Positions 18,601 to 35,976 of a stretch of 47,717 bases of DNA are shown piece by piece (the stretch's first letter is position 1; each line of letters begins with the position of its first letter). The stretch lies in contig JAUVYN010000018.1 of NCBI GenBank assembly GCA_030603065.1, positions 1-47,717 of the forward strand, written 5' to 3'. The notes beneath the pieces are model-generated. The model made no database searches and was not told the DNA's origin. It saw only the letters and a list, made by a program, of their open reading frames with translations. Both the position numbers and the translations under genes were made by a program. The stretch is from Pseudomonas sp. (GTDB taxonomy: Bacteria; Pseudomonadota; Gammaproteobacteria; Pseudomonadales; Pseudomonadaceae).

Positions 18601-18602
18601 AC

Positions 18603-18616: not shown

Positions 18617-18622
18617 CATGGT

Positions 18623-19405: not shown

Positions 19406-19449
19406 CTAACCCTCACGCTGACATTAGTGCGACGCCACATGCTAACACT

Positions 19450-19464: not shown

Positions 19465-19530
19465 ATCTGTGCCGCTCAGCCCTTCGCTGGTTAATTGCAC
19501 TTGACGCCGGTAAAAAAACCCCTTCATCAT

Positions 19531-19564
19531 GTTCGCATATTAAACATTAGTTCGTCATACGAAC
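19531..19564. promoter_or_regulatory. PcaR-type operator pair upstream of catI
   Basis: GTTCGTCATACGAAC at 19550-19564 is a perfect GTTCG-N5-CGAAC palindrome ending 21 bases before the catI ATG. A degenerate copy, GTTCGCATATTAAAC, lies at 19531-19545, leaving four bases between them. Two adjacent copies fit dimer-of-dimers binding known for IclR proteins. The nearest promoter candidate, TTGACG at 19501-19506, lies upstream, but I could not identify its -10 securely. Confidence 0.7.
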
Positions 19565-19585
19565 TATAAAAATGGAGATACGGTT

Positions 19586-20404
19586 ATGGCTGAATTTCTT
19601 TCCCTCCAGGAAGCCGTGAGCCGCCACATCAAAAATGGCGACACGGTTTGCATGGAAGGCTTTACCCACCTGATTCCCTTCGCTGCTGGTCATGAAGTTA
19701 TTCGACAGGAAATACGGGACCTGACGCTGGTGCGCATGACGCCGGATCTGATCTACGACCAGATGATCGGCGCGGGCTGCGCCAAGAAACTGATCTTTTC
19801 CTGGGGTGGAAACCCCGGCGTCGGGTCCCTGCATCGCCTGCGCGACGCCGTGGAAAAAGGCTGGCCGAGCAAGCTGGAAATTCTGGAGCACAGTCATGCC
19901 GCCATGGCATGCGCCTACGAGGCAGGCGCAGCGGGACTCCCGCTTGCGGTTCTTCGAGGATATGTGGGCAGTGACCTGCCGAAGGTCAATGATCAGATCA
20001 AATTCATCGAATGCCCCTTTACCGGTGAACGACTGGCGGCCGTGCCCTCAATACGACCGGACGTAGCGGTCGTTCACGCACAACGTGCCGACCGCAAGGG
20101 CAACGTGCTGATTGAAGGCATTGTCGGCATCCAGAAAGAAGCCGTACTCGCGGCCAAGCGCAGCATCGTCACCGTCGAAGAGGTGGTGGACGACCTCAAT
20201 GCTGGCGTTAACGCCTGCGTCCTGCCGTCCTGGGCCATCAGCGCGGTCGTGGTAGCGCCGCGGGGCGCCTCCCCCTCCTATGCCCTGGGTTACTACGACC
20301 GTAACAACGCCTTTTACAAGGAGTGGGACGGCATTGCCCGAGACCGGGAGGCGTTTCAAAGCTGGTTGAAAGACAACGTATTCAATAAAGGAGCTGCGCA
20401 ATGA
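19586..20404 (+). CDS. catI: 3-oxoadipate CoA-transferase subunit A (CatI/PcaI)
   Basis: A 272-aa alpha subunit that, with CatJ, moves CoA from succinyl-CoA to 3-oxoadipate. VCMEGFTHLIPFAAGHE is the class I glycine-rich region, and FSWGGNPGVGSLHRLR and RADRKGNVLIEG match the longer CatI type rather than the shorter PcaI of P. putida (about 230 aa). GGAG lies eight bases before the ATG. It is first of a rightward operon and its stop overlaps catJ by four bases. Confidence 0.9.
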   Translation: MAEFLSLQEAVSRHIKNGDTVCMEGFTHLIPFAAGHEVIRQEIRDLTLVRMTPDLIYDQMIGAGCAKKLIFSWGGNPGVGSLHRLRDAVEKGWPSKLEILEHSHAAMACAYEAGAAGLPLAVLRGYVGSDLPKVNDQIKFIECPFTGERLAAVPSIRPDVAVVHAQRADRKGNVLIEGIVGIQKEAVLAAKRSIVTVEEVVDDLNAGVNACVLPSWAISAVVVAPRGASPSYALGYYDRNNAFYKEWDGIARDREAFQSWLKDNVFNKGAAQ

Positions 20405-21177
20405 GCCTGGATTACACCTCCGCCGAAATGATGAGCGTTACTGCCGCTCGGGCATTGACCAACGACATGACCTGCTTCGTCGGTATCGGCGTGCCTAGCG
20501 AGGCTGCAAACCTCGCGCGTCTCACTCATGCGCCAGATGTCACGCTGATCTACGAATCGGGCACCCTGCAGACCAAACCCGACGTACTGCCGCTATCCAT
20601 TGGTGATGGCGAACTCTGTGAGTCGGCGTTGACCACCGTTTCCGTACCGGAAATGTTCCGGTACTGGCTGCAAGGAGGACATGTCAGTGTCGGCTTTCTA
20701 GGCACTGCCCAGCTGGATCGCTACGCCAACATCAATACGACCCTGATCGGCGATTACCTCTCGCCGCAGGTGCGCCTGCCGGGCGGCGGCGGGGCGCCAG
20801 AAATTGGCACCAATGCAAAAGAAGTGTTCATCACCGTCAAGCAATCCAAGCGCACCTTTGTCAAAGACGTTGATTTCATCACTACCGTTGGATTTGGTCG
20901 GGACGGCAAGGCGCGGGATAACGTGCCCAACATCGGCCGCGGGCCAACAGTTGTGATCACCGATCTCTGCATTCTCAAGCCCGATCCTGAAACCAAGGAA
21001 CTGGTCGTGACCTCACTGCACCCCAACGTGACGCGCGAGCAGGTAATCGACGCCACCGGTTGGGAGATTCGCTTTGCAGAGCAACTGGAAACCACCCCCG
21101 CGCCATCAGAGAAAGAGCTTCAAGTCCTGCGCGACCTCAAGTCCCGCACCGACGCCCATCACGCGGCACAAGAGTGA
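20401..21177 (+). CDS. catJ: 3-oxoadipate CoA-transferase subunit B (CatJ/PcaJ)
   Basis: A 258-aa beta subunit carrying the glutamate that forms the enzyme-CoA thioester, in the [12 protein letters not shown] segment. The oxyanion region is [11 protein letters not shown]. It is longer than the P. putida PcaJ (about 213 aa), as is the CatJ type. AAAGGAG precedes the ATG, which overlaps the catI stop (ATGA). pcaF begins eight bases after its stop. Confidence 0.9.
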
Positions 21178-21185
21178 GGCCGACC

Positions 21186-22388
21186 ATGAACGATGTTTAT
21201 CTATGTCATCCCCGCCGCTCAGCTATCGGACGCTTTGGCGGCGCCTTGGGTGGCATTCGCCCGGATGACCTGGCGGCCCAGATATTCCGTGCAGTGCTGG
21301 AGCTGGCGCCCGACCTGGATCCTGCCGCCATCGACGAGGTGGTAATGGGCTGTGCAAATCAGGCTGGAGAGGACAACCGCAATGTGGCGCGCATGTCCGC
21401 CCTGCTCGCGGGGCTGCCAACCTCCGTACCTGGCACAACCATCAACCGGCTCTGCGGTTCTGGCATGGATGCGGTGGGCACCGCCTTTCGTGCGATCCGC
21501 GCTGGCGAAATGGATCTGGTCCTGGCGGGCGGGGTGGAATCCATGTCACGGGCGCCTTATGTCATGGGCAAGGCGGACACCCCCTTCTCACGCGGCCAGC
21601 ACATCGAAGACACGACCATCGGCTGGCGCTTCGTGAACCCACTCATGAAAGCGCAATACGGCATAGATTCCATGCCCGAAACAGCCGAAAACGTCGCCGA
21701 GGCATTCGGCATATCGAGGGCAGACCAGGACCTTTTCGCCCTGGCGTCCCAACAGAAAGCGGCCAGGGCTCAGCAGGCAGGCATATTTGCCGAGGAGATC
21801 GCGCCGATAAATATTCCTCAGCGCAAACAGGCGCCGGTGATTTTCGACACCGACGAGCATCCGCGTAGCACCACCATCGAAAAGCTGGCGTCACTGCCTG
21901 CGCCGTTTCGCAGCGGTGGAAGCGTGACTGCCGGCAATGCGTCCGGGGTGAACGACGGAGCAGCTGCCATGCTGGTCGCCAGCGAAGCTGCGGTGAAACA
22001 GCACGGGCTCAAGCCCATAGCGCGTATTCTGGGCATGGCTACAGCGGGCGTGGAGCCAAGAATCATGGGCATTGGCCCCGTGCCTGCGGTTCGCAAGCTG
22101 CTGGAAAAACAGGACGTCAACTTGGCCGACATTGATGTAATAGAGTTGAACGAAGCCTTCGCAGCACAGGGCCTGGCCGTTCTGCGAGAACTTGGCATTG
22201 CCGACGATGATCCGCGGGTGAACCCCAATGGTGGTGGAATCGCTTTGGGCCACCCGCTGGGGATGTCAGGCGCTAGGCTGCTGCTGACTGCGGCCCAGCA
22301 GCTCCAGCGCACCGGCGGCCGGTACGCCCTGTGTACCATGTGCATCGGCGTAGGCCAGGGCATTGCAACACTCATCGAACGGGTCTGA
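21186..22388 (+). CDS. pcaF: 3-oxoadipyl-CoA thiolase PcaF
   Basis: A 400-aa thiolase splitting 3-oxoadipyl-CoA into succinyl-CoA and acetyl-CoA, the last step of the pathway. Catalytic Cys90 lies in [14 protein letters not shown], the active-site loops are NEAFAAQ and [16 protein letters not shown], and the second cysteine is in [10 protein letters not shown]. The frame is open upstream inside catJ, but the ATG at 21186 has GAGG six bases before it and gives the exact family length. Confidence 0.95.
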
Positions 22389-22402
22389 GGACAGGAGATC
22401 AC

Positions 22403-23191
22403 ATGGCATTTCTACATCATAAGGGCCGAGTAATCTATTATCGCTTGCTGGGCGACAACGCTAAGCCATTGCTGATACTGGCTCATGCGCTGGGCATGAC
22501 CCAGGGGGCATGGGACGACACGCTGCCAGCGCTGCTCGAGCGGTTTCGTGTCTTGACCTGGGATCTGCCCGGCCACGGCGCAAGTGCCGCCTGGCCGGAA
22601 GGATCCGACGAGATTACGCCGGAGGATCTGGCGGCAGAGGCGCTGGCGCTGGCAGACCTGGCCGGGGCAGATACCTTCCGTTTCGTGGGCACATCCATCG
22701 GTGGCGTAGTGGGCCAGCAATTGCTTGCATACCACCATAAGAGGTTGGTCTCAGCGGTTCTGACCAATACCGGGGCGGTCATTGGCACCCGAGACAGATG
22801 GGAAACACGGTCCGCCGATGTATTGCAGAAAGGGCTAGAAGTCATGTCTGAAGCAATCGTACCGCGCTGGTTCGGCCCGGAAAGCTGTCGACAGCAACCC
22901 GCCTTAGTAGAAGGCTGGGCCGGGATCATGGGCCGTGGCGATGCGCGCAGCTACGCCTTGTTGTGTGAGATGTTGGGTACCTGCAATTACAGCGAAAAAC
23001 TGAAGCAGCTCAGTACCCCCCTGTTGCTGGTCGGCGGCAGCGACGACGTGGCCACTCCCCCGGCGTCCCTGCAAACCCTTGCGCAGGTCAGTGGCGCAGC
23101 CGCGCCAATCATCCTCGAACAGATCGGCCACGTTCCCTCTGTCGAGTGCCCGGCCAGGCTCAGCCAGATATTGATCGATTACCTGAGCTGA
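22403..23191 (+). CDS. pcaD: 3-oxoadipate enol-lactonase PcaD
   Basis: A 262-aa alpha/beta hydrolase that opens 3-oxoadipate enol-lactone, the meeting point of the catechol and protocatechuate branches. Nucleophile Ser98 is in VGTSIGGVVG, the acid Asp in GGSDDVATPP, and His243 in IGHVPSVE. GGAG lies just before the ATG. It is the last gene of the catI-catJ-pcaF-pcaD operon and supplies the step between CatC and CatIJ. Confidence 0.93.
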   Translation: MAFLHHKGRVIYYRLLGDNAKPLLILAHALGMTQGAWDDTLPALLERFRVLTWDLPGHGASAAWPEGSDEITPEDLAAEALALADLAGADTFRFVGTSIGGVVGQQLLAYHHKRLVSAVLTNTGAVIGTRDRWETRSADVLQKGLEVMSEAIVPRWFGPESCRQQPALVEGWAGIMGRGDARSYALLCEMLGTCNYSEKLKQLSTPLLLVGGSDDVATPPASLQTLAQVSGAAAPIILEQIGHVPSVECPARLSQILIDYLS

Positions 23192-23323: not shown

Positions 23324-24286
23324 ATGCATTCGCCCGCGATGGAAAAGGCCATGATCAGCAACCACACCGACAGACCAGAAACGTCTATCATCGAACCTTC
23401 CAAAGCGTGGATCTACGGAGCGCTGATGCTGATGATGCTCTGCTCTGGTCTGCAAATTTTCCTTTCTACCGACAAGATGTCGTTGATCGTCTCAACCATA
23501 TCGATTGGGCTAGCCGCTGCCGCCTTCTCCTTTTGCGTTAGGTTGAAACCGACCACTCGTAAAGTTCACGAACAAACGCAATTACCGTTCCCCGAGCCTG
23601 TTACTCCACCTTTGCCAGAAGAGCAGCCCGAGATCCTTTCGCCTGCCGCAGACTGGCCAGACGCTCTGGCCAGCCGACACCTGGACGACTTACGACGTAA
23701 CGTGGAGGTGGTGCTGAATGAAATGACCGAAGCCGGCGAGTTGGCCAAAGCTTCAGGTGTCAAGGTCGCCCGAAGTGCCAGCTGCATCTCCGACGCAGAG
23801 ATATCCATTCGGGATTTGTCCGAGTTCATGAAGCGTGTTGACGGGATATTTGTTCAGCTGGGCACGCAATCAGGGCAAATCGGGAGCATTGTGAGCGACA
23901 TTCAGGATATTGCAAAACAGACCAACTTATTGGCATTAAATGCTTCAATCGAGGCCGCCCGAGCCGGTGATTATGGCCGAGGCTTTGCAGTCGTAGCGGA
24001 TGAAGTCCGCCGTCTGGCGATACGTGCCAATGAATCCAGCACCGGTATTGGCACCATTGCAAAGAACCTCAAAGTCACCTCAATCGAAGCAGGGCAAGGC
24101 ATGCTGCAAATACGAGAGTCGTGTAACCGCTGCTTGGACCAGTCCGGTGAGGCCTTGCACGCAATGAATGAAATCAAAGTCGGGGCGATTGCGCGCATGG
24201 AAGTCGTAAAAGGAATCACCGACAGGTTACAGGTACAGCGCGAGCTTGCCCGACAACTCCAGACCGATCTGAGCAGAGAGACATAA
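23324..24286 (+). CDS. Short methyl-accepting chemotaxis protein lacking a sensor domain
   Basis: A 320-aa protein with two closely spaced membrane helices (about 28-48 and 52-74), so almost no periplasmic loop. A proline-rich linker follows, then a signalling domain with the CheA/CheW-contacting hairpin: [20 protein letters not shown] then [18 protein letters not shown]. The absence of a ligand-binding domain means it cannot sense an external compound directly as PcaY-type receptors do. It may read an internal or membrane signal, or assist another receptor. It follows pcaD by about 130 bases. The ATG at 23324 has a weak site; a later ATG at 23351 region is possible. Confidence 0.8.
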
Positions 24287-24315: not shown

Positions 24316-26208
24316 CTAACGACCGCTATTAGGGCCTTTCAACCTGCGATACAACGTCGCCCTGCCCATGCCCAGTCGCTTAGCCGCCAGGCTCACATTG
24401 CCCTGCTCCAAGACGAGTGCCTCCTCAATGGCCGCGCGCTCCATGGCTTGCAGACTTCCTCCCCTCGCTACAAGATGCGCACGCTCCCGATTTTTTTCAG
24501 CGAACGCTATTTCTTCGGGGAAGTGACCAGTTTCCAGCAATGCCCCGGGCTCGGCCACGGCGTCCGCGTGGGTGAGCGCGTAGATAAGCTCGCGGACATT
24601 GCCCGGCCAGTCATAGCTGATCAAGCGGAAGAGGCACGACTCCGACAGTTCACGAGTACCGCCTGTTGTTCTGTAACACTGATCCACTATGAAGGATCTC
24701 AAGTTTGAGCGCTCTGACAGGCGCGGTAAGCGGACCGTTATGCCTTTTATGCGATAGAGCAGATCCTCGCGAAACTCGCCGCGTCGGGTTGCATCCGCCA
24801 GATCACGATGGGTCGCACATATCAGTTGAAAGCGGATTTTTTTTGCAGTCGCACTGCCCAGGCGAGTTACCTCCCGGGTCTCCAGTACGCGCAACAGTCG
24901 AGACTGAAGCGTGAGTGGCATATCACCAATTTCGTCAAGAAACAGGGTCCCCCCCTCTGCCTGCTCGATCTTGCCGGCTGCCCCGCCTTTTCGTGCACCG
25001 GTATAAGCCCCGTCGGCGTGCCCGAACAACTCACCCTCGATCAGGGTATCGGGAATGGCCGCGCAATTGATGGCTACAAGTTTTCCGGAGGCAAACGCGC
25101 TGCCGTCATGTAGCGATCTCGCCATCACCTCCTTCCCGGTCCCGGTTTCTCCAAGCACTAGAACAGGTAGACCCTTGGCAATAGCACGAGCTGCCACAAC
25201 AACCTGACTATCAATACCCGGATCACCGAAATCGATGGAATCTGGCAGACATCTGTCCGATCTGCCCTGGGCAACTCGCCTGACAGCCGTCTGCGTCCTT
25301 CTGCTTACCGACCGTAGCGAAAACGATAATCCGGAATGCATTACCGCAGTCATTGGCTGCTTCCCACGCCGCAAGCCGTCAACCAACTCGTCGAAGCGCA
25401 AATCGAAAAGATCCTGAAAACTCAAGCTCCAATCTGCCGATACGAGACCTGTCAAATCCCGCACGCGGGGCGAGAGACCCAGCACCTGGCCGTCTGAACC
25501 AAGAGCTATAAGCAGATCTTCGGGTCTGTCGTGATCGCTCATTTCCCAGCCAAGGCCAACCATGAGAAAGGGCGACAGCATGGCCATCAATTGGCGCTCT
25601 ACCCGCGCCGAACATTGCTGTACCAGCGAAAGAGCGCTGCCGGGCTCAAGCGGGTTCTCACGTGTGATGTCGATAGCGCCTAGCACGCGCCCCATGGGAT
25701 CCACGATAGGAGACGCCGCACAGTTGAATACGCTGTTGGCATGGAGGTAGTGTTCCACCCCCGAGACTAGTACCGGACGCCGTTTCGATACGGCGCAGCT
25801 CATCGCCGATGTCCCGATATTCGCCTCGGAAAGATTCACACCCTGGCGGAACGCCCCGTTGATCAGCGTGTGAGCACATCGCTGAGAGCGCCTTACAGCT
25901 AGCGCGATGCCCTTGTCGTCAGTCAGCAACACGGAATAACCGGCACCGTTGACGGTTTGACCCAATTGCTCCAATGGCTGGATGGCAGCATCTAACAGCA
26001 CCCGATTGCTGTCCAGCAGCTCCAACAAACCGTTTCTGGAAACAGCATCGAACTCGACCTGCTCGCTGACGCTTTTGCTTGCTGCGGAACAGCGCTGCCA
26101 GGAATCCACAATGGCATCGTCGATCAGGCCGGTTGGAATCTGGCCATGTTCGAAAAATACTTCGCGCGCCTTGGCACGCCTGTGATCGGTAGGAATGAGA
26201 AGGGACAT
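24316..26208 (-). CDS. Sigma-54-dependent activator, GAF-AAA+-Fis (AcoR-like)
   Basis: A 630-aa enhancer-binding protein. An N-terminal GAF-type sensor occupies about 70-210 (SEANIGTSAMSCAVSKRRPV). The AAA+ domain has Walker A GETGTGKE (353-360), the sigma-54-contacting GAYTGA (400-405) and Walker B GGTLFLDEIGD. A Fis-type helix-turn-helix ends the protein (NVSLAAKRLGMGRATLYRRL). AcoR relatives often sense small alcohols, aldehydes or aromatics. The gene is divergent from the alcohol/aldehyde operon, whose promoter is a good -24/-12 site, so it is very probably the activator of that operon. Confidence 0.88.
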   Translation of the reverse strand: MSLLIPTDHRRAKAREVFFEHGQIPTGLIDDAIVDSWQRCSAASKSVSEQVEFDAVSRNGLLELLDSNRVLLDAAIQPLEQLGQTVNGAGYSVLLTDDKGIALAVRRSQRCAHTLINGAFRQGVNLSEANIGTSAMSCAVSKRRPVLVSGVEHYLHANSVFNCAASPIVDPMGRVLGAIDITRENPLEPGSALSLVQQCSARVERQLMAMLSPFLMVGLGWEMSDHDRPEDLLIALGSDGQVLGLSPRVRDLTGLVSADWSLSFQDLFDLRFDELVDGLRRGKQPMTAVMHSGLSFSLRSVSRRTQTAVRRVAQGRSDRCLPDSIDFGDPGIDSQVVVAARAIAKGLPVLVLGETGTGKEVMARSLHDGSAFASGKLVAINCAAIPDTLIEGELFGHADGAYTGARKGGAAGKIEQAEGGTLFLDEIGDMPLTLQSRLLRVLETREVTRLGSATAKKIRFQLICATHRDLADATRRGEFREDLLYRIKGITVRLPRLSERSNLRSFIVDQCYRTTGGTRELSESCLFRLISYDWPGNVRELIYALTHADAVAEPGALLETGHFPEEIAFAEKNRERAHLVARGGSLQAMERAAIEEALVLEQGNVSLAAKRLGMGRATLYRRLKGPNSGR

Positions 26209-26481: not shown

Positions 26482-26497
26482 TGGCACGATATTCGCT
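26482..26497 (+). promoter_or_regulatory. Sigma-54 (-24/-12) promoter
   Basis: TGGCACG-ATAT-TCGCT matches the consensus TGGCACG-N4-TTGCW at all but one base and keeps GG-N10-GC spacing. It lies 48 bases before the ATG of the outer-membrane protein gene and faces away from the sigma-54 activator gene. It should start transcription of the 26545-31170 operon. Confidence 0.75.
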
Positions 26498-26544
26498 CCA
26501 GTTACCTCGCTGCTACAAAAACAATATCAAGCTTGGAGCGCCTC

Positions 26545-27456
26545 ATGCGATCACCCCGTGAAATAACCTCACTAAATACCCTCATTCACTGTTCCGCATT
26601 GTTACTCAGTACGGGACTTTTTTCCGGCATGGCCCAGTCCGTCGAGATTGCTACTGATCCTGGCGACTACACGCCGCTGCCCGCCGGAGCGAGTCTTGGC
26701 ATTCTATATGGACAGTACGCAACGCGTGATCGCGTCTACGCCGACGGAGACCGTGTCCCCATGGACGCCGGATTGGACACCACTATCGGATTGGCCCGAT
26801 ATGTACATTACGTGGACGTCGGCGGCGTAATCGTCAATCCACAGGTCATTTTGCCCTTCGGCGAGGTTGAACTGACCGAGCCCTTCGGTCCGCTAAAACC
26901 AATGTCGGGCAGCGGCGTGGGTGATCCAATTGTCGGCGCTACCGCCTGGTTCCTCAACGACTCCGAGGCACAACAATGGTTTGGTCTGTCAGCGTTCGTC
27001 TCCGTACCGCTGGGCCGATACGACGCGGCCAGAGGCCCGGTTAATGTAGGGGAAAACCGCTGGAAAGGCATCTTTCACGCAGCCTACGTCAAGCACCTGA
27101 CCGACAAGGTGGCGATGGATCTGATCGGGGAGTACTCGATCTACGGCGACAACGACGATTTCCTAGGGCTGCGCCGCAAACAGGACGATGCCCAAAGCAT
27201 ACAGGGCCACCTGCGCTATATGCTGCAAGGGCAGAGCCACGTTGCATTGTCCTACTATCATTCGTTCGGCGGCGAGACCATTCTCGGCGGAATGGACCAG
27301 GATGACAAGGCCAACTCCAATCGCTGGCTAGCCACGTACGCCACCTTCCTTGCTCCCACCACTCAGCTGCAGATTCAGGCAGGCCGCGATATCCGAGTGG
27401 AAAACGGGTTCAAGGAAGACGCGCGGATCAACCTGCGTCTTCTCAAGGTGTTTTGA
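26545..27456 (+). CDS. Outer-membrane protein of the phenol MetA degradation family
   Basis: A 303-aa protein with a signal peptide ending near SGMAQS and a body of alternating amphipathic strands (LDTTIGLARYVHYVDVGGV, QAGRDIRVENGF), ending in hydrophobic residues with a terminal Phe as outer-membrane barrels do. It resembles the MetA-pathway putative transporters often found with aromatic catabolism genes. The ATG at 26545 has GGAG six bases upstream; a TTG four codons earlier overlaps that site. It is the first gene behind the sigma-54 promoter, and probably admits the hydrophobic substrate of the enzymes downstream. Confidence 0.8.
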   Translation: MRSPREITSLNTLIHCSALLLSTGLFSGMAQSVEIATDPGDYTPLPAGASLGILYGQYATRDRVYADGDRVPMDAGLDTTIGLARYVHYVDVGGVIVNPQVILPFGEVELTEPFGPLKPMSGSGVGDPIVGATAWFLNDSEAQQWFGLSAFVSVPLGRYDAARGPVNVGENRWKGIFHAAYVKHLTDKVAMDLIGEYSIYGDNDDFLGLRRKQDDAQSIQGHLRYMLQGQSHVALSYYHSFGGETILGGMDQDDKANSNRWLATYATFLAPTTQLQIQAGRDIRVENGFKEDARINLRLLKVF

Positions 27457-27507
27457 GCACGCTTCGCCCTGCCCAGGCAATTTCACGACACTTACTTGGA
27501 GAACACC

Positions 27508-28104
27508 ATGAGTCAGATGAGCGAACAAACGCTAGCAGCCATCGACCAGCTCGAAGGCTTGAGCCGCCGCACTTTCCTGAAGGCCGCCGCAGGCGTCGCG
27601 GTTGCGGTAACCATCGGTACGGGGTTAATGGGGGCCGCTGGGGCGTTCGCCTCGCTACCAGCGGGTATCAAGGTCATGTCCGCTGCGGAATATGGGGTCA
27701 TGAACCGTCTTATGCAGGTCATGCTGGTAACGGAGGGAACTGCACTGGTCCCGGCCAGCGAGATACCTGTTATGCAGACGCTGGACGCTGCCCTTTTGGC
27801 TGGCATGGCGCCCAACATCCTCGATGGTCTCAAGGGCGGGATCGGTTACTTCAACGCAGGGCCCAAGGCTACCTACGGCAAATTCTTCGTTGAGCTCAAC
27901 GACGCCCAGGCGGCAGCCTTCTGCGATGCCTGGGCAGACTCCGACGAGATACCTCACCGGGCTCTCGCCATGGGCCTGAAGAAACTGGTCGGCCTGGCCT
28001 ACTGGGCCAACCCTCCCACCTGGCAGCCGCTCGGGTACGGCGGGCCGGTCACGGAAAAATGGAATCTGCAGTCTCTGGGCAACGCGCCTTTACCGAAAAG
28101 CTGA
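27508..28104 (+). CDS. Tat-exported small subunit of a GMC dehydrogenase (gluconate 2-dehydrogenase subunit 3-like)
   Basis: A 198-aa protein with a twin-arginine signal, LSRRTFLKAAAG (Arg20, Arg21) followed by a hydrophobic stretch to about residue 50. The mature part (MQTLDAALLAGMAPNILDGL, YFNAGPKATYGKFFVELNDA) resembles the small subunit of gluconate 2-dehydrogenase and related periplasmic dehydrogenases. GGAG lies six bases before the ATG. It lies 15 bases before the GMC gene, which lacks a signal of its own; in this family the small subunit carries the folded flavoprotein through Tat. No cytochrome c subunit gene is nearby, so the electron acceptor is unclear. Confidence 0.78.
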   Translation: MSQMSEQTLAAIDQLEGLSRRTFLKAAAGVAVAVTIGTGLMGAAGAFASLPAGIKVMSAAEYGVMNRLMQVMLVTEGTALVPASEIPVMQTLDAALLAGMAPNILDGLKGGIGYFNAGPKATYGKFFVELNDAQAAAFCDAWADSDEIPHRALAMGLKKLVGLAYWANPPTWQPLGYGGPVTEKWNLQSLGNAPLPKS

Positions 28105-28119
28105 ATGGCGAGATAAACC

Positions 28120-29682
28120 ATGCAAACAATAAAAGCAAAAGCAGTGCCTGCGCACGGACTTCAGGTGACTCAGGCCTCGGACGTCAGCCGTGACGATATT
28201 GAACTGAATGTCGACGCGGTAGTTATCGGCTCTGGCGCTGGCGGGGCGATCGCCGCCTACGAGCTGGCCAAGGCGGGCAAGAAGGTGGTCGTCCTGGAGG
28301 CAGGGCCCTACATTCCCTCCGAGAAGTTTACCGAAATGATGGCAGTATCCATGGACCAGCTCTATGCCGACCATGGTGGGCAAGCCAACACGGCTGGCGA
28401 TATATCCATTCTGCAGGGCGCCTGCGTTGGCGGCTCGACAGTCGTGAATGCAGCCCTGTGTTTCCGCACCCCGGATTACTATCTGAACCTGTGGGCCAGG
28501 GAGTTCGGGCTTACCAACCTGAACCCCAGCGTCATGCTCCCCTACTTCGAAAAAGTGGAGGCCAACCTGGGTATCGCTCCCAACAAGCCTCATGAAACCA
28601 GCGCTGGCGCTCAGCTGCTCAAAAGCGGGATGAAGAAGCTTGACCTGCCGGAGGGTAACGCCGTACGCAACATCCGTGACTGCGCAATGACGGGCTTTTG
28701 TTTTGCCGGTTGTAAATCGGATCGCAAGCAGTCGATGCTGGTGACCTATCTGCCCTGGGCCGTGGCTCACGGCGCAGAGATTTATGCTGATACACGAGCC
28801 ATCCAGATTTTAGCCGGGTCCGGCAAGGCCACTGGCGTGCTTGCGGAAATCGTCGACCCGGCCACCAAAACGGTAAAAAGCAGACTCAAGGTCAACGCGC
28901 CCATAGTCGTTGCGGCCGCAGGTCCTATCCAGACGCCGATCCTGCTTCAAAAAAGCAACCTCGCAAACAACAATGGGCAGGTTGGGAAGAATTTCGCCTG
29001 TCACCCTACCTTGTCAATCACCGGCATGTTCGAGAAAAACATCGACGCGTTCTACGGCGCGACCCACTCCCTGTTCATGGACAAGTACACCATGCCGGAG
29101 GAAGGTGGCTATCTGCTACTGGACGCCGTTCAGGACCCTGTCGAAGCCAGCACTCAGGTCGAGCCCGGTACCGGCAAGCCTTACATGTCCTATATGGCCA
29201 AGTATCGGAACTCGCTCAGGCTGATCACCCTGATTCATGATCAGAACGTGGGCGAGGTCAATTGGAAGGATGGCGTCAAGGAGATCAAGTACTTCGTTGA
29301 CGACGAGGATTTCGAGATTATGAAGGCGGGCTTGAAAACCAACGCAAGGGTGCTGTTTGCCGCTGGCGCCCAGTATTTGTACATCCCGACCTCTCAGAAA
29401 CTGACCATAGAAAGTGAGGACCAGATCGACTCCGTGATCGACGGGCTGCAAAACGAACCTGCCCGCTACCGCTATACCTCTTTTCACCCCCAGGGAACCT
29501 GTCGCATGGGTGCCGATCCGGCCACTACTGTGGTGTCCCCATCTGGAGAGACGCATGAGGTTAAGAATCTTTACATCGTGGACGCCAGCCTGTTGCCAAC
29601 TTCGATCGGGTACAACCCTTCGGAAACCGTCTATGCCCTGGCCCACTACATCAGCGATCAGATCAACCGGGCCCATGCCTGA
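28120..29682 (+). CDS. GMC-family FAD-dependent alcohol dehydrogenase, probable aryl/benzyl alcohol dehydrogenase
   Basis: A 520-aa flavoprotein. The FAD motif is VVIGSGAGGAIAAYELAKAG with Glu60 for the ribose; GGSTVVNAALCF follows, then a cysteine cluster CAMTGFCFAGC (188, 194, 198). The C-terminal active site holds His456 (FHPQGTCRMG) and Asn499 (GYNPSETVYALAH). It has no signal peptide; the Tat subunit just upstream is its likely export partner. The next gene is a XylC-like aldehyde dehydrogenase and the region carries full benzoate genes, so a benzyl-type alcohol is the best guess for the substrate. Terpenoid or aliphatic alcohols remain possible. Confidence 0.82.
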   Translation: MQTIKAKAVPAHGLQVTQASDVSRDDIELNVDAVVIGSGAGGAIAAYELAKAGKKVVVLEAGPYIPSEKFTEMMAVSMDQLYADHGGQANTAGDISILQGACVGGSTVVNAALCFRTPDYYLNLWAREFGLTNLNPSVMLPYFEKVEANLGIAPNKPHETSAGAQLLKSGMKKLDLPEGNAVRNIRDCAMTGFCFAGCKSDRKQSMLVTYLPWAVAHGAEIYADTRAIQILAGSGKATGVLAEIVDPATKTVKSRLKVNAPIVVAAAGPIQTPILLQKSNLANNNGQVGKNFACHPTLSITGMFEKNIDAFYGATHSLFMDKYTMPEEGGYLLLDAVQDPVEASTQVEPGTGKPYMSYMAKYRNSLRLITLIHDQNVGEVNWKDGVKEIKYFVDDEDFEIMKAGLKTNARVLFAAGAQYLYIPTSQKLTIESEDQIDSVIDGLQNEPARYRYTSFHPQGTCRMGADPATTVVSPSGETHEVKNLYIVDASLLPTSIGYNPSETVYALAHYISDQINRAHA

Positions 29683-29709
29683 CCGCAACTGAGATTGAGG
29701 AGCATGATT

Positions 29710-31170
29710 ATGAATAGTCAGGAAACCCCGATATGGGAAGACAACCTCTACCTGGGCTCGTGGAAAAGTGGTGTCGGGGAACGATTCGCAGTAACGGCGC
29801 CTGCAACGGGTGAGACGATTGCACAGCTCAGATTAGCAACCACCGCCGACGTCGACCGCGCCGCAAGCATTGCCAAAGCCGCGGAGAGACAGTGGTCAGA
29901 GGCCTCCTTCGACCAAAAGGCGGAAATACTCCGCCGGGCGGCCGCACTCCTGCGCGATCGGGCCCCTGAGATCAACGCGTGGAATACCCGTGAATGCGGC
30001 TCCATCGGACCGAAGGCCGATTTCGAACTGCAGGCAACTTACGAGCAGGCTCAAATGTCTGCGGCACTGCCCATGCAGCCTTATGGAAGCATTTTCCCAT
30101 CCTCCATGCCGGGCCGACGGAACTACTGGAGGCGCGTTCCGCTCGGCACGGTTGGGGTGATTGCTCCCTGGAATTTTCCAATACTGTTGGCTATGCGATC
30201 GGTCTTTCCAGCGTTGGCCATGGGTAATTGCGTCATCCTCAAACCGGACGTGAAGAGCGCCGTTTGTGGAGGCGCACTGATGGCGCAACTTCTGCAAGAC
30301 GCAGGGTTACCCGAAGGGGTTTTTCATGTGTTGCCGGGTGGACCAGAGGTGGGCGAGGCGCTGGTGGAACACCCGCTGATCAAGATGATTTCCTTTACCG
30401 GGTCAACCGCAGTCGGTCGCAAGATCGGTGAGACCTGCGGCCGCATGCTGAAGAAAGCCGCGCTTGAACTCGGTGGCAACAATGCCCAGGTGGTGATGGA
30501 CGACGCTGATCTGAACACCGCCAGCTCCTGCGGGGCCTGGGGTTCTTTCTTGCACCAGGGCCAGATCTGTATGCAGACAGGCCGTCATCTTGTGCACAGT
30601 TCTATAGCTGACGAGTACATCGAGCTGCTCGCCAAACGGGCCAAAAATCTGAACTGTGGCGATCCGGCGACCGAGCAGGTGCATCTGGGCCCGCTGATAA
30701 ACGAAGCCCAAGCCAGACGGGTTGAAGATATCGTGAACCGGTCGGTTGCGATGGGGGCCAAGGTGATCGCTGGCGGTAAGCGTAACGGCTGCTATTACGA
30801 AGCCACGGTCCTCGCGGAGGTGACCGAGGACATGCCTGCCTTCGCCGAGGAGATCTTCGGCCCTGTTGCCCCGGTTACGACCTTCGATTCCGACGCAGAC
30901 GCTTGCGCTCTGGTCAATCAATCCCCCTACGGCCTGGCCGCCGCCATACATTCGAAATCAACGGAGCGAGCACAGCGCCTCGCAAACCAGTTGCACGTCG
31001 GAATGATTCATATCAATGACCAGACAATAAACAACGAATTTCAGGTTCCGTTTGGCGGCATGGGTAGCTCCGGCAATAGCGGCCGCTTCGGTGGGCCTGC
31101 GAACATTGAGGAGTTCACAACCAGCCAGTGGGTCAGCGTGATGGATGAGGGAGTTCAATATCCCTTCTGA
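29710..31170 (+). CDS. XylC-like (benzaldehyde) aldehyde dehydrogenase
   Basis: A 486-aa NAD(P)-dependent aldehyde dehydrogenase with Asn155 (APWNFP), Glu253 (LELGGNN) and nucleophile Cys287 (GQICMQTG). Stretches such as WNTRECGSIGPK, FPSSMPGRRNYWRRVPLG and the C-terminal PANIEEFTTSQWVSVMDEG are, from memory, very like XylC benzaldehyde dehydrogenase of TOL plasmids, and the length matches (487 aa). It should turn the aldehyde made by the GMC enzyme into benzoate or a relative. The ATG at 29710 has GAGGAG seven bases upstream. It ends the operon; a terminator follows at 31232. Confidence 0.85.
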   Translation: MNSQETPIWEDNLYLGSWKSGVGERFAVTAPATGETIAQLRLATTADVDRAASIAKAAERQWSEASFDQKAEILRRAAALLRDRAPEINAWNTRECGSIGPKADFELQATYEQAQMSAALPMQPYGSIFPSSMPGRRNYWRRVPLGTVGVIAPWNFPILLAMRSVFPALAMGNCVILKPDVKSAVCGGALMAQLLQDAGLPEGVFHVLPGGPEVGEALVEHPLIKMISFTGSTAVGRKIGETCGRMLKKAALELGGNNAQVVMDDADLNTASSCGAWGSFLHQGQICMQTGRHLVHSSIADEYIELLAKRAKNLNCGDPATEQVHLGPLINEAQARRVEDIVNRSVAMGAKVIAGGKRNGCYYEATVLAEVTEDMPAFAEEIFGPVAPVTTFDSDADACALVNQSPYGLAAAIHSKSTERAQRLANQLHVGMIHINDQTINNEFQVPFGGMGSSGNSGRFGGPANIEEFTTSQWVSVMDEGVQYPF

Positions 31171-31231
31171 TTGACCTGGACAGGAGCGACCATCGCTACT
31201 GGGTGCACGTTCTCAAAGAACCTTGGCACTG

Positions 31232-31263
31232 ACCCGGAGGGTATCGAGCCCTCTGGGTTTTTT
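31232..31263 (+). terminator. Rho-independent terminator of the alcohol-oxidation operon
   Basis: ACCCGGAGGG and CCCTCTGGGT form a 10-bp stem (one G-T mismatch) around a seven-base loop, followed by six T residues. It lies 61 bases after the aldehyde dehydrogenase stop and separates this operon from the ABC transporter genes. Confidence 0.85.
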
Positions 31264-31400: not shown

Positions 31401-32576
31401 ATGAACAGAACCAGGACTTTAGCCAGCGCGATGCTGGCGGCTACGCTTACTGCCGGCGCATCTACGAATTCATCCGCCGCCGCCGGTGATACAGTCAAGA
31501 TCGGGGTCATGCTGCCCTTCAGTGGCATCTATGCCCAACTGGGGGAAGCCGGCCGGGATGGCCTGAAACTGGCGTTGAAAGAGCAGGCTAGCCAGTTACA
31601 CGGTTCCAGGGTCGAGTTCATCGAACTGGACACCGAAGCGAAACCTGCACGCGCCCCAGAGCTTGCCTCCTCTCTCCTCAACCAGCACAAAGCTGACTTC
31701 GTAATCGGACCCGTCCATTCGGGTGTAGCCATGGGCATGATCAAGGTCCTCCGTGGCAAGGACACCGTCATGATCATTCCTAACGCGGGATCTGCCGCCG
31801 CAACTGGCCCTTTGTGCGCCCCCAATGTTTTCCGAACGTCATTCTCATCCTGGCAGCCTTCCTACCCCATGGGGCAGGTAGCTCTGGACCGGGGCTACAA
31901 GAAAGTCTATGCCATCAGCTGGAACTACGGCATGGGGCGCGAGAGCCTTGAGGCCTTCGCTGAATCCTTCACTGCCGGGGGAGGTGAAATCGTTAAGATG
32001 GAATTGCTGCCGTTCCCTTCCACCAACTTTCAGCCCCACGTTAGCGACATTGCCAACTCCAAACCTGACGCGGTTTTCACCTTCTTCGCAGGCGGCGGGG
32101 CCATCAAATTCGCCAAGGATTACGAGGCCTCAGGCCTGCTTGGCAAGATCCCTTTGCTAGGCTCCGGGTTTCTTACTGAGGGCACGCTCCCGGCTCAGGG
32201 CAAAGCTGCCGAAGGCATCGTTACCACATTGCATTACGCCGAAGAACTGGATATTCCGAAAAACCATCAGTTCCGCAAGGCGTTTCATGCGGAGTACGGC
32301 AAGTACCCCGATATCTACGCCGTGCAGGGCTACGACGCCGGCCAGGCCATCGCCAGCACCATCGATATGCTCGGCGGGGACATCTCAGACAAGCAAGCCG
32401 TCATAAAAACCATGGAGAAGCTGACCATCGACAGCCCGCGTGGTGCATTCACGTTCTCCAAGGCTCACAACCCGATCCAGAACATCTATCTGAGGGAAGT
32501 AGAGAACGGTGTGAACGTGGTTAAAGGTATCGCTGCCGAGGCGCTGGAGGATCCTGCTCGGGGGTGCAAGGCCTGA
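31401..32576 (+). CDS. ABC transporter periplasmic substrate-binding protein (Leu/Ile/Val-type)
   Basis: A 391-aa type I binding protein with an N-terminal signal sequence (cleavage near SSAAAG). The mature start VKIGVMLPFSGIYAQLGEAG and the DAVFTFFAGGGAIKFAKDYE stretch are typical of the LivK/AmiC group. Many relatives in catabolic clusters bind aromatic acids rather than amino acids. GAGG precedes the ATG by seven bases. It is the first gene of a five-gene transporter followed by a porin. The substrate is most likely an aromatic compound fed to the nearby enzymes, by context only. Confidence 0.85.
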   Translation: MNRTRTLASAMLAATLTAGASTNSSAAAGDTVKIGVMLPFSGIYAQLGEAGRDGLKLALKEQASQLHGSRVEFIELDTEAKPARAPELASSLLNQHKADFVIGPVHSGVAMGMIKVLRGKDTVMIIPNAGSAAATGPLCAPNVFRTSFSSWQPSYPMGQVALDRGYKKVYAISWNYGMGRESLEAFAESFTAGGGEIVKMELLPFPSTNFQPHVSDIANSKPDAVFTFFAGGGAIKFAKDYEASGLLGKIPLLGSGFLTEGTLPAQGKAAEGIVTTLHYAEELDIPKNHQFRKAFHAEYGKYPDIYAVQGYDAGQAIASTIDMLGGDISDKQAVIKTMEKLTIDSPRGAFTFSKAHNPIQNIYLREVENGVNVVKGIAAEALEDPARGCKA

Positions 32577-32665
32577 TCCGACACTGGGCCCCCTGCTTGC
32601 CCGGGGGCCCAGTGGCTGCTCTCTGCACTGAACACACCTCTCCATAACACCGTTTGGGTATCGTT

Positions 32666-33529
32666 ATGTCTGCCGAGCTCTTTCTCGTACAACTGATCAA
32701 TGGGGTCCAGTACGGGCTACTGCTGTTCCTAATTGCTTCCGGCCTGACGCTCGTTTTTGGCGTAATGGGCATCCTCAACCTGGCCCACGGCTCCATGTAT
32801 ATGGTCGGCGCGTACCTGACATGGTACTTCGTCACCGTTACCGGAAGTTTTACCGCAGCGGCTCTGATATCCGCCGTCATCGCCCTGCTGCTTGGGCTGG
32901 TCATTGAGCGGGTACTGATACAACGACTCTACAATCGCAATCACCTGGATCAGGTGTTGCTTACCATCGGCATGATCTTCGTGTTCAACGCCTTGCAGAG
33001 CATGCTCTGGGGCAATGATCCTCACGGGGTAGACGTGCCAGAGGCGCTCGGCGGCAGCTTTCCACTCACGGAAAATTCCAGCTATCCGGTCTACCGCGTT
33101 TTTGCCGCGGCCATCTGCGTGGCGATTGCGGGGGCGCTCTATTATCTGGTGAGCCAGACGCGCTTAGGGATGCTGATCCGTGCCGGGGAATCCAACCGGG
33201 AGATGGTGGAGGCGCTTGGCGTCAACATCAAATCGCTCTACACCATCGTGTTCGCCATTGGCGTCATGCTGGCTGCCATATCAGGCATCATCGCCGCGCC
33301 CATGAGATCCATCGTGCCAGGAATGGGCGAAAGCGTGTTGATCACCTGTTTCGTGGTGGTAGTGATTGGCGGCATGGGCTCCATCAAGGGGGCCTTCGTG
33401 GGGGCGCTGGCGGTCGGGGTCATCAGCACCTTTGCCGCCGTGCTGATACCCGCCATGTCGAACATGATTATCTACATCTTTATGATCCTGGTGCTGCTGG
33501 TAAAGCCCCAGGGCCTGTTCGCCAAATAG
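32666..33529 (+). CDS. ABC transporter permease, LivH type
   Basis: A 287-aa inner-membrane permease with about eight helices, opening FLVQLINGVQYGLLLFLIAS and containing the conserved GIMNLAHG-like MGILNLAHGSMYMVGAY. The EAA-like loop with GVNIKSLYTIVFAIG and the GMGSIKGAFVGAL segment are standard. The ATG at 32666 is preferred over a TTG four codons earlier; both have weak ribosome-binding sites. It pairs with the LivM-type permease 13 bases downstream. Confidence 0.88.
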   Translation: MSAELFLVQLINGVQYGLLLFLIASGLTLVFGVMGILNLAHGSMYMVGAYLTWYFVTVTGSFTAAALISAVIALLLGLVIERVLIQRLYNRNHLDQVLLTIGMIFVFNALQSMLWGNDPHGVDVPEALGGSFPLTENSSYPVYRVFAAAICVAIAGALYYLVSQTRLGMLIRAGESNREMVEALGVNIKSLYTIVFAIGVMLAAISGIIAAPMRSIVPGMGESVLITCFVVVVIGGMGSIKGAFVGALAVGVISTFAAVLIPAMSNMIIYIFMILVLLVKPQGLFAK

Positions 33530-33542
33530 GCGGGAGCGAAAC

Positions 33543-34499
33543 ATGATTTTCGAAAAGCGTACCGAACGCATTTTTCTGGCGGTTTTCTTCACTGTCGCTT
33601 TATGCATCCCCCTGTTCCTGGAAGCCAATTCTTTCTTTGTAGGCAAGGTCACGACGATCCTGATCCTGACAATATTCGTAATGTCCCTTGATTTTCTGGT
33701 GGGCCGCGTTGGGCTGGTAACCTTGGGGCACGCGCTTTTCTATGGGCTAGGAGGTTACCTGTTTGCCATCCTTGCCCCGGAATACGAAGCCGTTAATTTC
33801 TGGGTCTATGCCTTCTACATCATGGCCATCAACGCGTTGATTGCGCTGGTCGTCGGCGCGGTGGTGCTTCGCACCTCCGGCATCTACTTCATCATGATTA
33901 CGCTGGCCATGTCGCAGATGGTCTATTACTTCTTCTTCGATTCATTGGAGTTTGGTGGCGACGACGGTCTGTTCATCTTCATGAAGCCGGAAACGACCAT
34001 TTTTGGAATCAGCTTTCTGGATCTGGATAACCCATCGCACTTTTATTACCTCGCGCTGTTCGCCGTATTGATTACCCTCCTCTCGATCAAGATCGTCCTG
34101 CGTTCGCGCTTCGGACGCATCGTCGAGGCCAGTCGCATCAATCCACAACGCACCGAAGCACTCGGCTACAACATTTTTGCCTTCCGTCTGATCAGCTACG
34201 TCGTCGGCAGCATGCTGGCAGCTTATGCCGGCCTGTTGTTCGCTCTGCAATACGGGTACGTGAACCCGCAGTTCATGACTTGGGAAATGTCTGGCACGGC
34301 GCTGGTGATGCTCATACTGGGCGGCATGGGGACCATCTACGGCGCGATTCTCGGCACCATCGCCTACGAAAGCCTGCATTACCTTTTCGAACACATGACG
34401 ACCGATTGGATGCTGTTCATGGGCGGCGCCATCATTCTGATGGTTCTGCTGCTACGCAAAGGTCTGGCCGGGTATCTTGAAAAGCTGCTGGAGAAATAA
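33543..34499 (+). CDS. ABC transporter permease, LivM type
   Basis: A 318-aa second permease. SLDFLVGRVGLVTLGHALFY near the N-terminus and ILGGMGTIYGAILGTIAYES near the end are the usual LivM landmarks, with about nine hydrophobic segments. GGGAG lies six bases before the ATG. The LivG-type ATPase begins two bases after its stop, so translation is coupled. Confidence 0.88.
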   Translation: MIFEKRTERIFLAVFFTVALCIPLFLEANSFFVGKVTTILILTIFVMSLDFLVGRVGLVTLGHALFYGLGGYLFAILAPEYEAVNFWVYAFYIMAINALIALVVGAVVLRTSGIYFIMITLAMSQMVYYFFFDSLEFGGDDGLFIFMKPETTIFGISFLDLDNPSHFYYLALFAVLITLLSIKIVLRSRFGRIVEASRINPQRTEALGYNIFAFRLISYVVGSMLAAYAGLLFALQYGYVNPQFMTWEMSGTALVMLILGGMGTIYGAILGTIAYESLHYLFEHMTTDWMLFMGGAIILMVLLLRKGLAGYLEKLLEK

Positions 34500-34501
34500 T
34501 C

Positions 34502-35266
34502 ATGGTCAACGACATCATCCTTTCAACCGAGTCGCTCAGCAAACATTGGGGGGGCATAAAAGCCGTCAATGATATTTCTCTCAAGTTTCATGACAAGCAG
34601 CTGCATGGTGTGGTCGGTCCCAACGGCGCCGGAAAAAGCACCCTGCTGAACCTTTTGTGCGGCACGCTCAAACCCACTGGCGGCTGCATCTTCCACAAGG
34701 GGGAACGGATCGAAGGCGCAAAACCCTGGAAATTCGCCCGTCGGGGCATCGGCCGCAGCTTTCAGAAAACCAACATCTATCCAGACGTGACGTGCCTGGA
34801 GAATTGTTCGGTAGCAGCGCAGCGCCGTTTCACCGGAAGCTTCAACCTGTTCGCCTCCCGTCACGGCAACCAGCTGGTTATAGCTGCAGCAAAAAAAGCA
34901 CTCGACCAGGTAGGGCTTGCCACAAGGGCAAACACTATCGCAGCAGAGATTTCCTACGGCGAGCAACGGCAACTGGAGCTCGCCATGGTGCTAGCAACGG
35001 ATCCATGCATCCTGTTGCTGGATGAGCCCATGGCAGGCATGGGTCACGATGAGTCGCAGCGCATTATCGAGCTACTCAAGGAACTCAAAAAAACCTACTG
35101 CATTGTGCTGGTCGAACACGACATGGACGCCATCTTCGAGCTTTCGGACCAACTGACGGTGCTGGATAACGGCTCCCACCTGATTACAGGAACCGTAGAG
35201 CAGGTGCGCAACGAGCCCCGGGTGAAAGAAGCCTATCTGGGCAAGGAAGAAGAGGAGCACGCATGA
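34502..35266 (+). CDS. ABC transporter ATP-binding protein, LivG type
   Basis: A 254-aa ATPase with Walker A GPNGAGKSTLL and Walker B CILLLDEPMAGM. The ABC signature is degenerate: ISYGEQRQLELAMVLATDP instead of LSGGQ, which is normal for LivG proteins. The switch histidine is in LVEHDMD. It starts two bases after the permease gene and overlaps the LivF-type gene by four bases. Confidence 0.9.
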   Translation: MVNDIILSTESLSKHWGGIKAVNDISLKFHDKQLHGVVGPNGAGKSTLLNLLCGTLKPTGGCIFHKGERIEGAKPWKFARRGIGRSFQKTNIYPDVTCLENCSVAAQRRFTGSFNLFASRHGNQLVIAAAKKALDQVGLATRANTIAAEISYGEQRQLELAMVLATDPCILLLDEPMAGMGHDESQRIIELLKELKKTYCIVLVEHDMDAIFELSDQLTVLDNGSHLITGTVEQVRNEPRVKEAYLGKEEEEHA

Positions 35267-35976
35267 ATACCCCCCTTCTGGAGGTCAAGAGCCTCAATAC
35301 TCTATACGGCCGCAGCCACGTGCTTCACGACCTGTCATTCCGCCTCGACAAGGGCGAGTCCATGAGCCTGATGGGGCGTAACGGCATGGGAAAGACGACC
35401 ACACTCAAGTCCATTCTAGGCATAGTCGGCCCCCGCAGTGGCGAGATCTATTTCGATGGCGAAGACATCGGCAAGCTACCGACCTGGAAGCGTATGCGCC
35501 GGGATATAGCCTATGTACCGGAAGGTCGCGGCATGTTTCATAACCTCACCGTAAAGGAACACCTGCTGATGGCCGCCAGGCCGGACAGCAATGGCAGAAC
35601 CAGTTGGGACTTCGACCGCGTCATGGAGACCTTCCCCCGTCTTCAGGAGCGTCTGACCAACCTGGGCACAGAGCTGTCCGGTGGAGAACAGCAGATGCTC
35701 GCCATTGGCCGTGCGTTGGTCACGAATCCGCGATTGATGATACTGGATGAGGCAACCGAGGGCCTCGCACCACTGATTCGTCAGGATATCTGGAACGTTA
35801 TCGCGACCATACGAGACTCAGGTATCTCCACGCTTATTGTCGACAAGAACATCAAAGCACTGACAAAGCTCTGTGACCGCCACGTGGTCGTTGTAAAAGG
35901 TAGTGTTCACTTCAACGGCACCTCTGCCGAGCTTCAACAGAACATCGAAAAAGTCGAATCCGCGCTCAGTGTCTAA
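35263..35976 (+). CDS. ABC transporter ATP-binding protein, LivF type
   Basis: A 237-aa ATPase with Walker A GRNGMGKTTTL, signature LSGGEQQMLAIGRAL and Walker B LMILDEATEGLAP. The position of the usual switch histidine reads LIVDKN, so His is replaced by Lys; LivF proteins commonly have VEQN here, so variation is expected. It completes the five-part transporter and ends 98 bases before the porin. Confidence 0.9.
   Translation: MNTPLLEVKSLNTLYGRSHVLHDLSFRLDKGESMSLMGRNGMGKTTTLKSILGIVGPRSGEIYFDGEDIGKLPTWKRMRRDIAYVPEGRGMFHNLTVKEHLLMAARPDSNGRTSWDFDRVMETFPRLQERLTNLGTELSGGEQQMLAIGRALVTNPRLMILDEATEGLAPLIRQDIWNVIATIRDSGISTLIVDKNIKALTKLCDRHVVVVKGSVHFNGTSAELQQNIEKVESALSV

Follow-up and report, generated by a model that had tools for sequence, protein, structure and literature searches.

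The 47,717-nucleotide contig JAUVYN010000018.1 of a Pseudomonas sp. assembly (GCA_030603065.1), the whole of which we term the window, carries an operon that we read as a sigma-54-controlled route by which benzyl alcohol would enter the benzoate pathway. At its core is a pair of proteins predicted to be exported together, namely a GMC flavoprotein and a small subunit with a twin-arginine translocation (Tat) signal. We assign this reading a probability of about 0.76. The parts of the operon, their order, the promoter-like element at its head, the pairing of the two proteins, the link to benzoate genes and the affiliation of the aldehyde dehydrogenase with XylC are directly read from the nucleotide and predicted protein sequences.

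Architecture, promoter and relatives of the operon

The operon successively codes for a MetA-type outer-membrane protein, possibly an uptake channel, the Tat-signal small subunit, the GMC flavoprotein and a XylC-like aldehyde dehydrogenase (Table 1). These genes and the sigma-54 element ahead of them are all found where the original prediction, made from the DNA letters alone, had placed them. The gene for an AcoR-like sigma-54-dependent activator lies on the minus strand facing the operon and specifies its candidate regulator. The MetA-type gene probably starts at ATG 26545, as read from the sequence. The aldehyde dehydrogenase gene probably starts at ATG 29710, which has a GAGGAG stretch ahead of it, the longest open reading frame (ORF) running from TTG 29695.

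Using six peptide patterns, which recover close relatives only, 22 loci were retrieved with the GMC protein from the genome collection. They come from Pseudomonas neustonica (GMC 90% identical; G139 and G148 are apparently one genome and were counted once), Marinobacter, Azoarcus, Marinobacterium, Amphritea, Oceanobacter, Alteromonas, Hydrogenophaga, Sulfuricella, Perlucidibaca (52%) and a few other bins. A homologous small subunit is encoded immediately ahead of the GMC in all 22 loci, and a XylC-like gene adjoins the pair in 20. Regulator and MetA-type homologs occur within the fetched stretch in 19 and 15 loci, respectively. Two loci, L022 (Sulfuricella) and L025, are without the XylC-like gene, the regulator and the MetA-type gene, and L007 is a contig of just 3.3 kb. 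The gene order varies, with the aldehyde dehydrogenase coming first in Hydrogenophaga and the regulator lying between the porin and the small subunit in Alteromonas. In a tree of the GMC proteins, from which nine locus entries (duplicates, truncated genes and paralogs) were left out, the Sulfuricella protein falls inside the module clade, where its branching is open, despite its locus having no aldehyde dehydrogenase. A sample of 369 genomes of the class yielded the GMC in two, the second (G175) having a 40% relative; counts from this sample may be low, as at most four first-look candidates were scored per genome. Two loci have interrupted GMC genes in otherwise intact modules: in Marinobacter sp. 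2_MG-2023 (L024) the pieces lie in two frames with a TGA, and in a betaproteobacterial metagenome-assembled genome (L020) there is one internal TAG. These suggest sequencing error or recent decay.

The bare sigma-54 pattern is matched 24 times in the window at up to two mismatches, against 30.6 expected, and so does not exceed chance. Over the 110 bases that precede the first gene, none of 300 shuffles reached the score of TGGCACGATATTCGCT. We extended the test to 23 loci, comprising the 22 related ones and the plasmid pKD02 (see below). An element agreeing with 9–11 of the 12 specified bases is present 50–80 bases ahead of the first gene in 16 of these, with a shuffle fraction of at most 0.05 in 12 and of 0.057–0.07 in four. 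The Hydrogenophaga loci share the element, although their first gene is that of the aldehyde dehydrogenase. In L013 it lies 24 bases ahead of the first gene, while the L007 contig is too short for the test. Five loci (L010, L016, L022, L023 and L025) have no element at 50–80 bases; in L016 and L023 an element is found 11 bases ahead of the assigned start codon. While the lone pattern is at chance level, its position and conservation speak against a chance match, which we reject.

The XylC-like aldehyde dehydrogenase and the place of XylB

The aldehyde dehydrogenase of the window is 54.8% identical to XylC of the TOL plasmid pWW0, and its sequence neighbors in the PDB are 4-hydroxybenzaldehyde and benzaldehyde dehydrogenases. 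In a tree of 36 rows (omitting the L001 fragment, the partial L007 sequence, own_L054, L028 and L021), it belongs to a group of 27 with support of 100/99. This group unites it with 18 other aldehyde dehydrogenases of GMC loci, four TOL-type XylC proteins and four plasmid relatives, of which two are Burkholderiaceae plasmid enzymes and two have another kind of GMC neighbor. Falling outside it are NahF and XylG, the pTTS12 type, four more plasmid enzymes or relatives of them, and two aldehyde dehydrogenases from elsewhere in the same genome; several of these rows are long branches. Thus, the enzyme sits with XylC rather than with non-aromatic enzymes, the placement that the original prediction had named as one that would overturn it, and the tree rejects its identification as a general aldehyde dehydrogenase. 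Since the branching within the XylC group is open, the order in which its forms originated cannot be stated.

XylB, the usual partner of XylC, is a cytoplasmic zinc-dependent NAD enzyme. The idea, put forward in the original prediction, that the GMC/Tat pair takes its place is supported in that no XylB ortholog was found in the window's genome, which is 95.4% complete. The sole match at E ≤1e-30, a formaldehyde-type enzyme, is 33% identical to pWW0 XylB, passes the cut-off for class III alcohol dehydrogenases (737 versus 544 bits) and is encoded next to an S-formylglutathione hydrolase. We accordingly rejected a XylB ortholog elsewhere in this genome. The same search across ten entries (nine distinct genomes) gave a match in nine, at 31–35% identity.

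The link to benzoate degradation

The ben, cat and pca genes of the window adjoin the operon on its upstream side, and the operon hence opens into the pathway from benzoate to beta-ketoadipate, a connection not used in the original prediction. The best NCBIfam model for BenA is benzoate 1,2-dioxygenase, at 725.6 bits versus a cut-off of 781, with anthranilate dioxygenase at 443.5. The pcaD and pcaIJ matches are under their curated cut-offs, the catechol dioxygenase is of the intradiol type, and a small ORF (16144-16434) is taken to be catC-like from its sequence.

We searched for BenA and for BoxB in 22 genomes, those of the window and of 21 of the 22 loci, the genome of L007 being left out. 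Thirteen of them have a BenA of at least 59% identity and seven others a BoxB that scores over its curated cut-off, none having both; the full GMC module accompanies benzoate degradation genes in 20 of the 22 genomes. The two genomes with neither, those of Sulfuricella and Perlucidibaca, are those whose loci are without the XylC-like gene and the regulator. Of the 13 genomes with BenA, 11 have the GMC and benA genes on one contig at a distance of 5.0–17.1 kb, the other two being metagenome assemblies with the genes on separate contigs; GMC and boxB share a contig in one of seven (Marinobacterium, 14.4 kb apart). As background, in the class sample of 369 genomes BenA reached E ≤1e-150 in three, counting that of the window. 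Among the 19 members of the genus listed, seven have BenA and two the GMC, both of the latter being BenA carriers.

The substrate need not be benzyl alcohol itself. XylC-type enzymes accept substituted benzaldehydes, XylC-group relatives occur on plasmids with other gene sets, and in a Hydrogenophaga locus (L017) the GMC gene is followed by that of a protein 25% identical to pcaD, perhaps a hydrolase. The pair could, then, act on substituted benzyl or cinnamyl-type alcohols, or on alcohol set free from benzyl esters, with the XylC-like enzyme making the matching acid. We consider this unlikely, as the partner pathway in the above 20 genomes is that of unsubstituted benzoate, whether via BenA or BoxB, and the window encodes an intradiol-type catechol dioxygenase.

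The GMC/Tat pair and its proposed export

The GMC protein has both GMC_oxred domains, and the GSGAGG motif, His456 and Asn499 are invariant across 21 GMC sequences; together with its fold matches, these features place it in the GMC superfamily. His456 and Asn499 are proposed as the catalytic pair. Its top profile match in the PDB is the catalytic subunit of FAD-dependent glucose dehydrogenase (FAD-GDH), an enzyme for which passages of PMC6719666 describe a hitchhiker small subunit, a C-x5-C-x3-C motif for a 3Fe-4S cluster and a triheme cytochrome c subunit. A cysteine triad (Cys188-x5-Cys194-x3-Cys198) is likewise invariant in the 21 sequences and has spacing identical to that of Cys212/218/222 of FAD-GDH; the profile alignment does not cover this loop. 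From this spacing, the GMC protein probably binds a 3Fe-4S cluster.

The small subunit matches the Pfam models TAT_signal (3.5e-5) and Gluconate_2-dh3 (7.5e-5), the latter right at its curated cut-off (23.5 bits, or 23.2 from ATG 27508, versus 23.4). Across the 22 loci, Gluconate_2-dh3 (PF13618) is recovered in 21 small subunits at E ≤0.01 and the TAT_signal model in 10, while an RRxF motif is invariant in all; searching the PDB sequences with a small-subunit profile gave nothing useful. The GMC N-termini, judged by eye, have no visible signal peptide. An adjacent Gluconate_2-dh3 subunit with a twin-arginine signal beside a signal-less catalytic subunit is the arrangement of two-subunit Tat-dependent GMC dehydrogenases. 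Export of the pair through the Tat system, and with it a presumptive periplasmic location, is supported by the RRxF motif, the signal-less GMC N-termini and a TatC encoded in the genome. The same lack of a signal peptide might be taken to mean that the GMC protein remains cytoplasmic, with the small Tat protein serving as a separate periplasmic partner. This appears highly improbable in light of the strict pairing in 22 of 22 loci and of the hitchhiker complexes known from FAD-GDH and LaoAB, the former from passages of PMC6719666.

Proposed mechanism and the electron acceptor

By analogy with known enzymes, which is our basis for naming benzyl alcohol as the substrate, the periplasm as the compartment and the path of the electrons, we envisage the following scheme. 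The MetA-type protein may admit benzyl alcohol through the outer membrane. The GMC protein, carrying FAD and probably a 3Fe-4S cluster, would fold in the cytoplasm, bind the Tat-signal small subunit and be exported together with it. In the periplasm the pair would convert benzyl alcohol to benzaldehyde and pass the electrons through the putative 3Fe-4S cluster to an acceptor whose gene lies apart, either a cytochrome c or a quinone, and thence to the respiratory chain. Benzaldehyde would diffuse inward across the inner membrane and be turned by the cytoplasmic XylC-like NAD(P) enzyme into benzoate, to be degraded by the products of the adjoining ben, cat and pca genes.

No cytochrome c gene occurs in the operon, in line with the original prediction, as a scan of the window and 25 loci for CxxCH-containing ORFs confirms. 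The single such ORF of the window looks antisense, and 22 of the 25 loci have none. L006 has one without a Pfam match, and L010 two, one of them di-haem peroxidase-like. In L020 a cytochrome c' gene (3051-3530) lies just before the regulator, about 4 kb upstream of the GMC pair, and a cytochrome c gene lies about 6 kb downstream, outside the operon; the sister Hydrogenophaga loci, L017 and L019, showed no such cytochrome c' gene. As cytochrome position is thus not conserved, the acceptor is probably encoded elsewhere in the genome.

Several observations weigh against a benzyl alcohol route of this kind. In six of the seven BoxB genomes the GMC and boxB genes lie on different contigs, and BoxB is itself fairly common, exceeding its cut-off in 32 of 150 genomes of the order of G160. 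In the host family BenA is found in 75 of 148 genomes versus two of 148 for the GMC; with BenA common and the GMC rare, the latter is an optional add-on. The 40% GMC relative of G175 has a small subunit in a genome with no BenA. With respect to XylB, L005 bears a zinc alcohol dehydrogenase fragment near its contig end, 37% identical to XylB over 180 amino acids. On the structural side, confidence in the GMC model is intermediate, the predicted local distance difference test (pLDDT) value falling below 50 in the cysteine loop, and the small-subunit model has no significant fold match, the gamma subunit of FAD-GDH not being among the matches listed. Finally, the same genome has a further operon of related composition (L058, Table 1), which we name Lao-like from its organization. 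The best NCBIfam model for its aldehyde dehydrogenase, below the cut-off, is the benzaldehyde dehydrogenase MdlD, and hence aromatic alcohols could be handled there too.

Probable mobility, possible second recruitment and significance

On the Alteromonas macleodii plasmid pKD02 (L028, NZ_CP147980.1, 9845-17991), a module of chemoreceptor, porin, regulator, small subunit, GMC and aldehyde dehydrogenase genes is flanked by genes for Tn3-family transposases, making it a candidate catabolic transposon. The window's BenA (13687-15072) is 95% identical to that of P. neustonica and 91% and 80% to those of Marinobacter G167 and G150, and only 77–80% to those of five other members of its own genus. This suggests that the ben/cat/pca/GMC block has probably moved horizontally between these lineages. 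The flanking Tn3 transposase genes of pKD02, the patchy occurrence in the genus (two of 19) and the use of long-chain alcohols by Lao-type pairs, as stated in parts of the Lao literature, would also fit a pair acting on an aliphatic alcohol, terpenoid or sugar, with its benzoate neighborhood being mere cargo of a mobile block, the least probable of the readings given the co-occurrence in several families with differing gene orders and the coincidence of loci without the XylC-like gene with genomes without BenA and BoxB.

Plasmids of Pseudomonas sp. BYT-5 (L044, 5944-12636) and Rhizobium sp. CB3090 (L043, 4160-7380) likewise encode XylC-like aldehyde dehydrogenases, here in the vicinity of GMC genes from another subfamily. 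The GMC proteins of these plasmids are 49% identical to each other and at most about 22% to that of the window. The BYT-5 plasmid also has a sigma-54 regulator and a chemoreceptor, with an insertion sequence between the aldehyde dehydrogenase and GMC genes. This raises the possibility of a second, independent recruitment of a GMC by XylC-type enzymes. The odds seem about even for the wider proposition that the Tat-exported 3Fe-4S GMC clade represents an undescribed respiratory, NAD-independent route for benzyl alcohol, which mobile elements have distributed among marine Pseudomonadales, Oceanospirillales-type bacteria, Alteromonas and certain Betaproteobacteria, and that, in view of the different GMC subfamily on these two plasmids, a GMC was recruited by XylC-type enzymes at least twice.

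If the proposed benzyl alcohol route is correct, annotation pipelines overlook the benzyl alcohol step in genomes without XylB. Moreover, these bacteria, most of them marine, would break down aromatic alcohols through a reaction that is membrane-linked, practically irreversible and located outside the cytoplasm. It would gain respiratory electrons and separate alcohol oxidation from the NADH pressure of the cytoplasm.

Neighboring genes

Beyond the operon lies a Liv-type ABC transporter, which possibly takes up an aromatic acid. Its homologs adjoin the module in L005, L006 and L024 and lie about 4.5 kb away in L018 and L021. Homologs of the chemotaxis-like protein ahead of the activator gene are encoded near the module in L004, L015, L016, L023 and L024, and pKD02 has an annotated methyl-accepting chemotaxis protein. 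The porin-like gene has a 70% homolog in the same position in L006. An IS5 family transposase (38681-39649) follows directly downstream of the transporter and an IclR-like regulator. Further on, genes for DoxX-like, carboxylesterase-like, LigB-type ring-opening dioxygenase, F420_oxidored-like and LysR proteins (40233-43816) form a candidate aromatic cluster.

Table 1. Features of the operon, its surroundings in the window and the related operon of the same genome
Feature	Position	Strand	Basis or remark
AcoR-like sigma-54-dependent activator with GAF, AAA and Fis-type helix-turn-helix domains	24316..26208	-	Pfam; candidate regulator of the operon
Sigma-54 (-24/-12) promoter-like element TGGCACGATATTCGCT	26482..26497	+	11/12 specified bases; position kept in most relatives
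MetA-type outer-membrane protein, Phenol_MetA_deg	26545..27456	+	Pfam E 1.7e-28
Tat-signal small subunit, Gluconate_2-dh3 family (LaoB / GDH gamma-like), proposed hitchhiker carrier	27508..28104	+	Pfam
GMC flavoprotein, no signal peptide visible	28120..29682	+	GMC_oxred_N 7e-45, GMC_oxred_C 8e-26
XylC-like benzaldehyde dehydrogenase (predicted)	29710..31170	+	Pfam E 1e-154; identity to XylC; tree
Intrinsic terminator-like hairpin, candidate operon end	31231..31259	+	Comparable sites in region at chance number
benE, aromatic-acid MFS, benDCBA, catA, catC-like ORF, catB, benM-like, pcaR, pcaIJ-like, pcaF, pcaD-like	8795..23191	.	
Methyl-accepting chemotaxis-like protein	23324..24286	+	Read from sequence
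Liv-type ABC transporter: binding protein, two permeases, two ATPases	31401..35976	+	Pfam/NCBIfam (binding protein, first permease); others read from sequence
Porin-like protein, 344 aa	36045-37079		Weak Pfam match; between ABC transporter and IclR-like gene
Lao-like operon: aldehyde dehydrogenase, Tat-signal protein, GMC, divergent TetR	L058 4009-8370, contig C162		

Comparison with known systems

The TOL plasmid pWW0 resembles the window in having a XylC-like benzaldehyde dehydrogenase that feeds benzoate oxidation and a sigma-54-type regulator. It differs in having XylB where the window has the GMC/Tat pair, and the window's regulator is 37% identical to XylR over only 302 amino acids. No XylM match was found among the 33 window genes compared, the remainder of the genome not having been searched for it. 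The FAD-GDH of Burkholderia (gamma-alpha-beta) and the fructose dehydrogenase of Gluconobacter, both among the top fold matches, share the design of a GMC subunit with a hitchhiker small subunit. However, FAD-GDH has a triheme cytochrome c subunit, which has no counterpart in the window's operon, and identity in the fold alignments is about 15–20%. Fungal and some bacterial aryl-alcohol oxidases are likewise GMC enzymes acting on benzylic alcohols, but are oxygen-using oxidases. The words 'Tat', 'gluconate' and 'periplasm' do not occur in the main text of a review of these enzymes (PMC12198266). Among the matches listed in the open-licence literature, none described a Tat-linked GMC enzyme of bacteria that acts on benzyl alcohol, a result that leaves its absence unproven. 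What appears new, judging from the genomes, is a combination of known kinds of parts.

On the grounds of analogy, the closest working counterpart of the window's pair is LaoAB, a Tat-dependent GMC alcohol dehydrogenase. According to passages of PMC13291428 and PMC10779009, LaoABCR of Pseudomonas aeruginosa oxidizes long-chain alcohols, and its P. putida homologs were found to be dispensable; the complex is named a Tat-dependent dehydrogenase in a 2021 title cited by PMC10779009. As in the window, a GMC catalytic subunit, a small Tat partner and an aldehyde dehydrogenase occur together. The LaoABCR regulator is of the TetR type, whereas that of the window is of the sigma-54 type, and the window's aldehyde dehydrogenase is XylC-like and set in a benzoate cluster. 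Relative to the Lao-like operon of its own genome, the GMC is 30% and the small subunit 24% identical, values that pertain to this paralog and not to P. aeruginosa LaoA. The module of the window has the look of a sister system. It would offer a clean test of how GMC/Tat pairs deliver electrons without an operon-encoded cytochrome, a condition in which LaoAB is apparently alike. Most likely, by this analogy, the window's module is a benzyl-alcohol version of the Lao theme.

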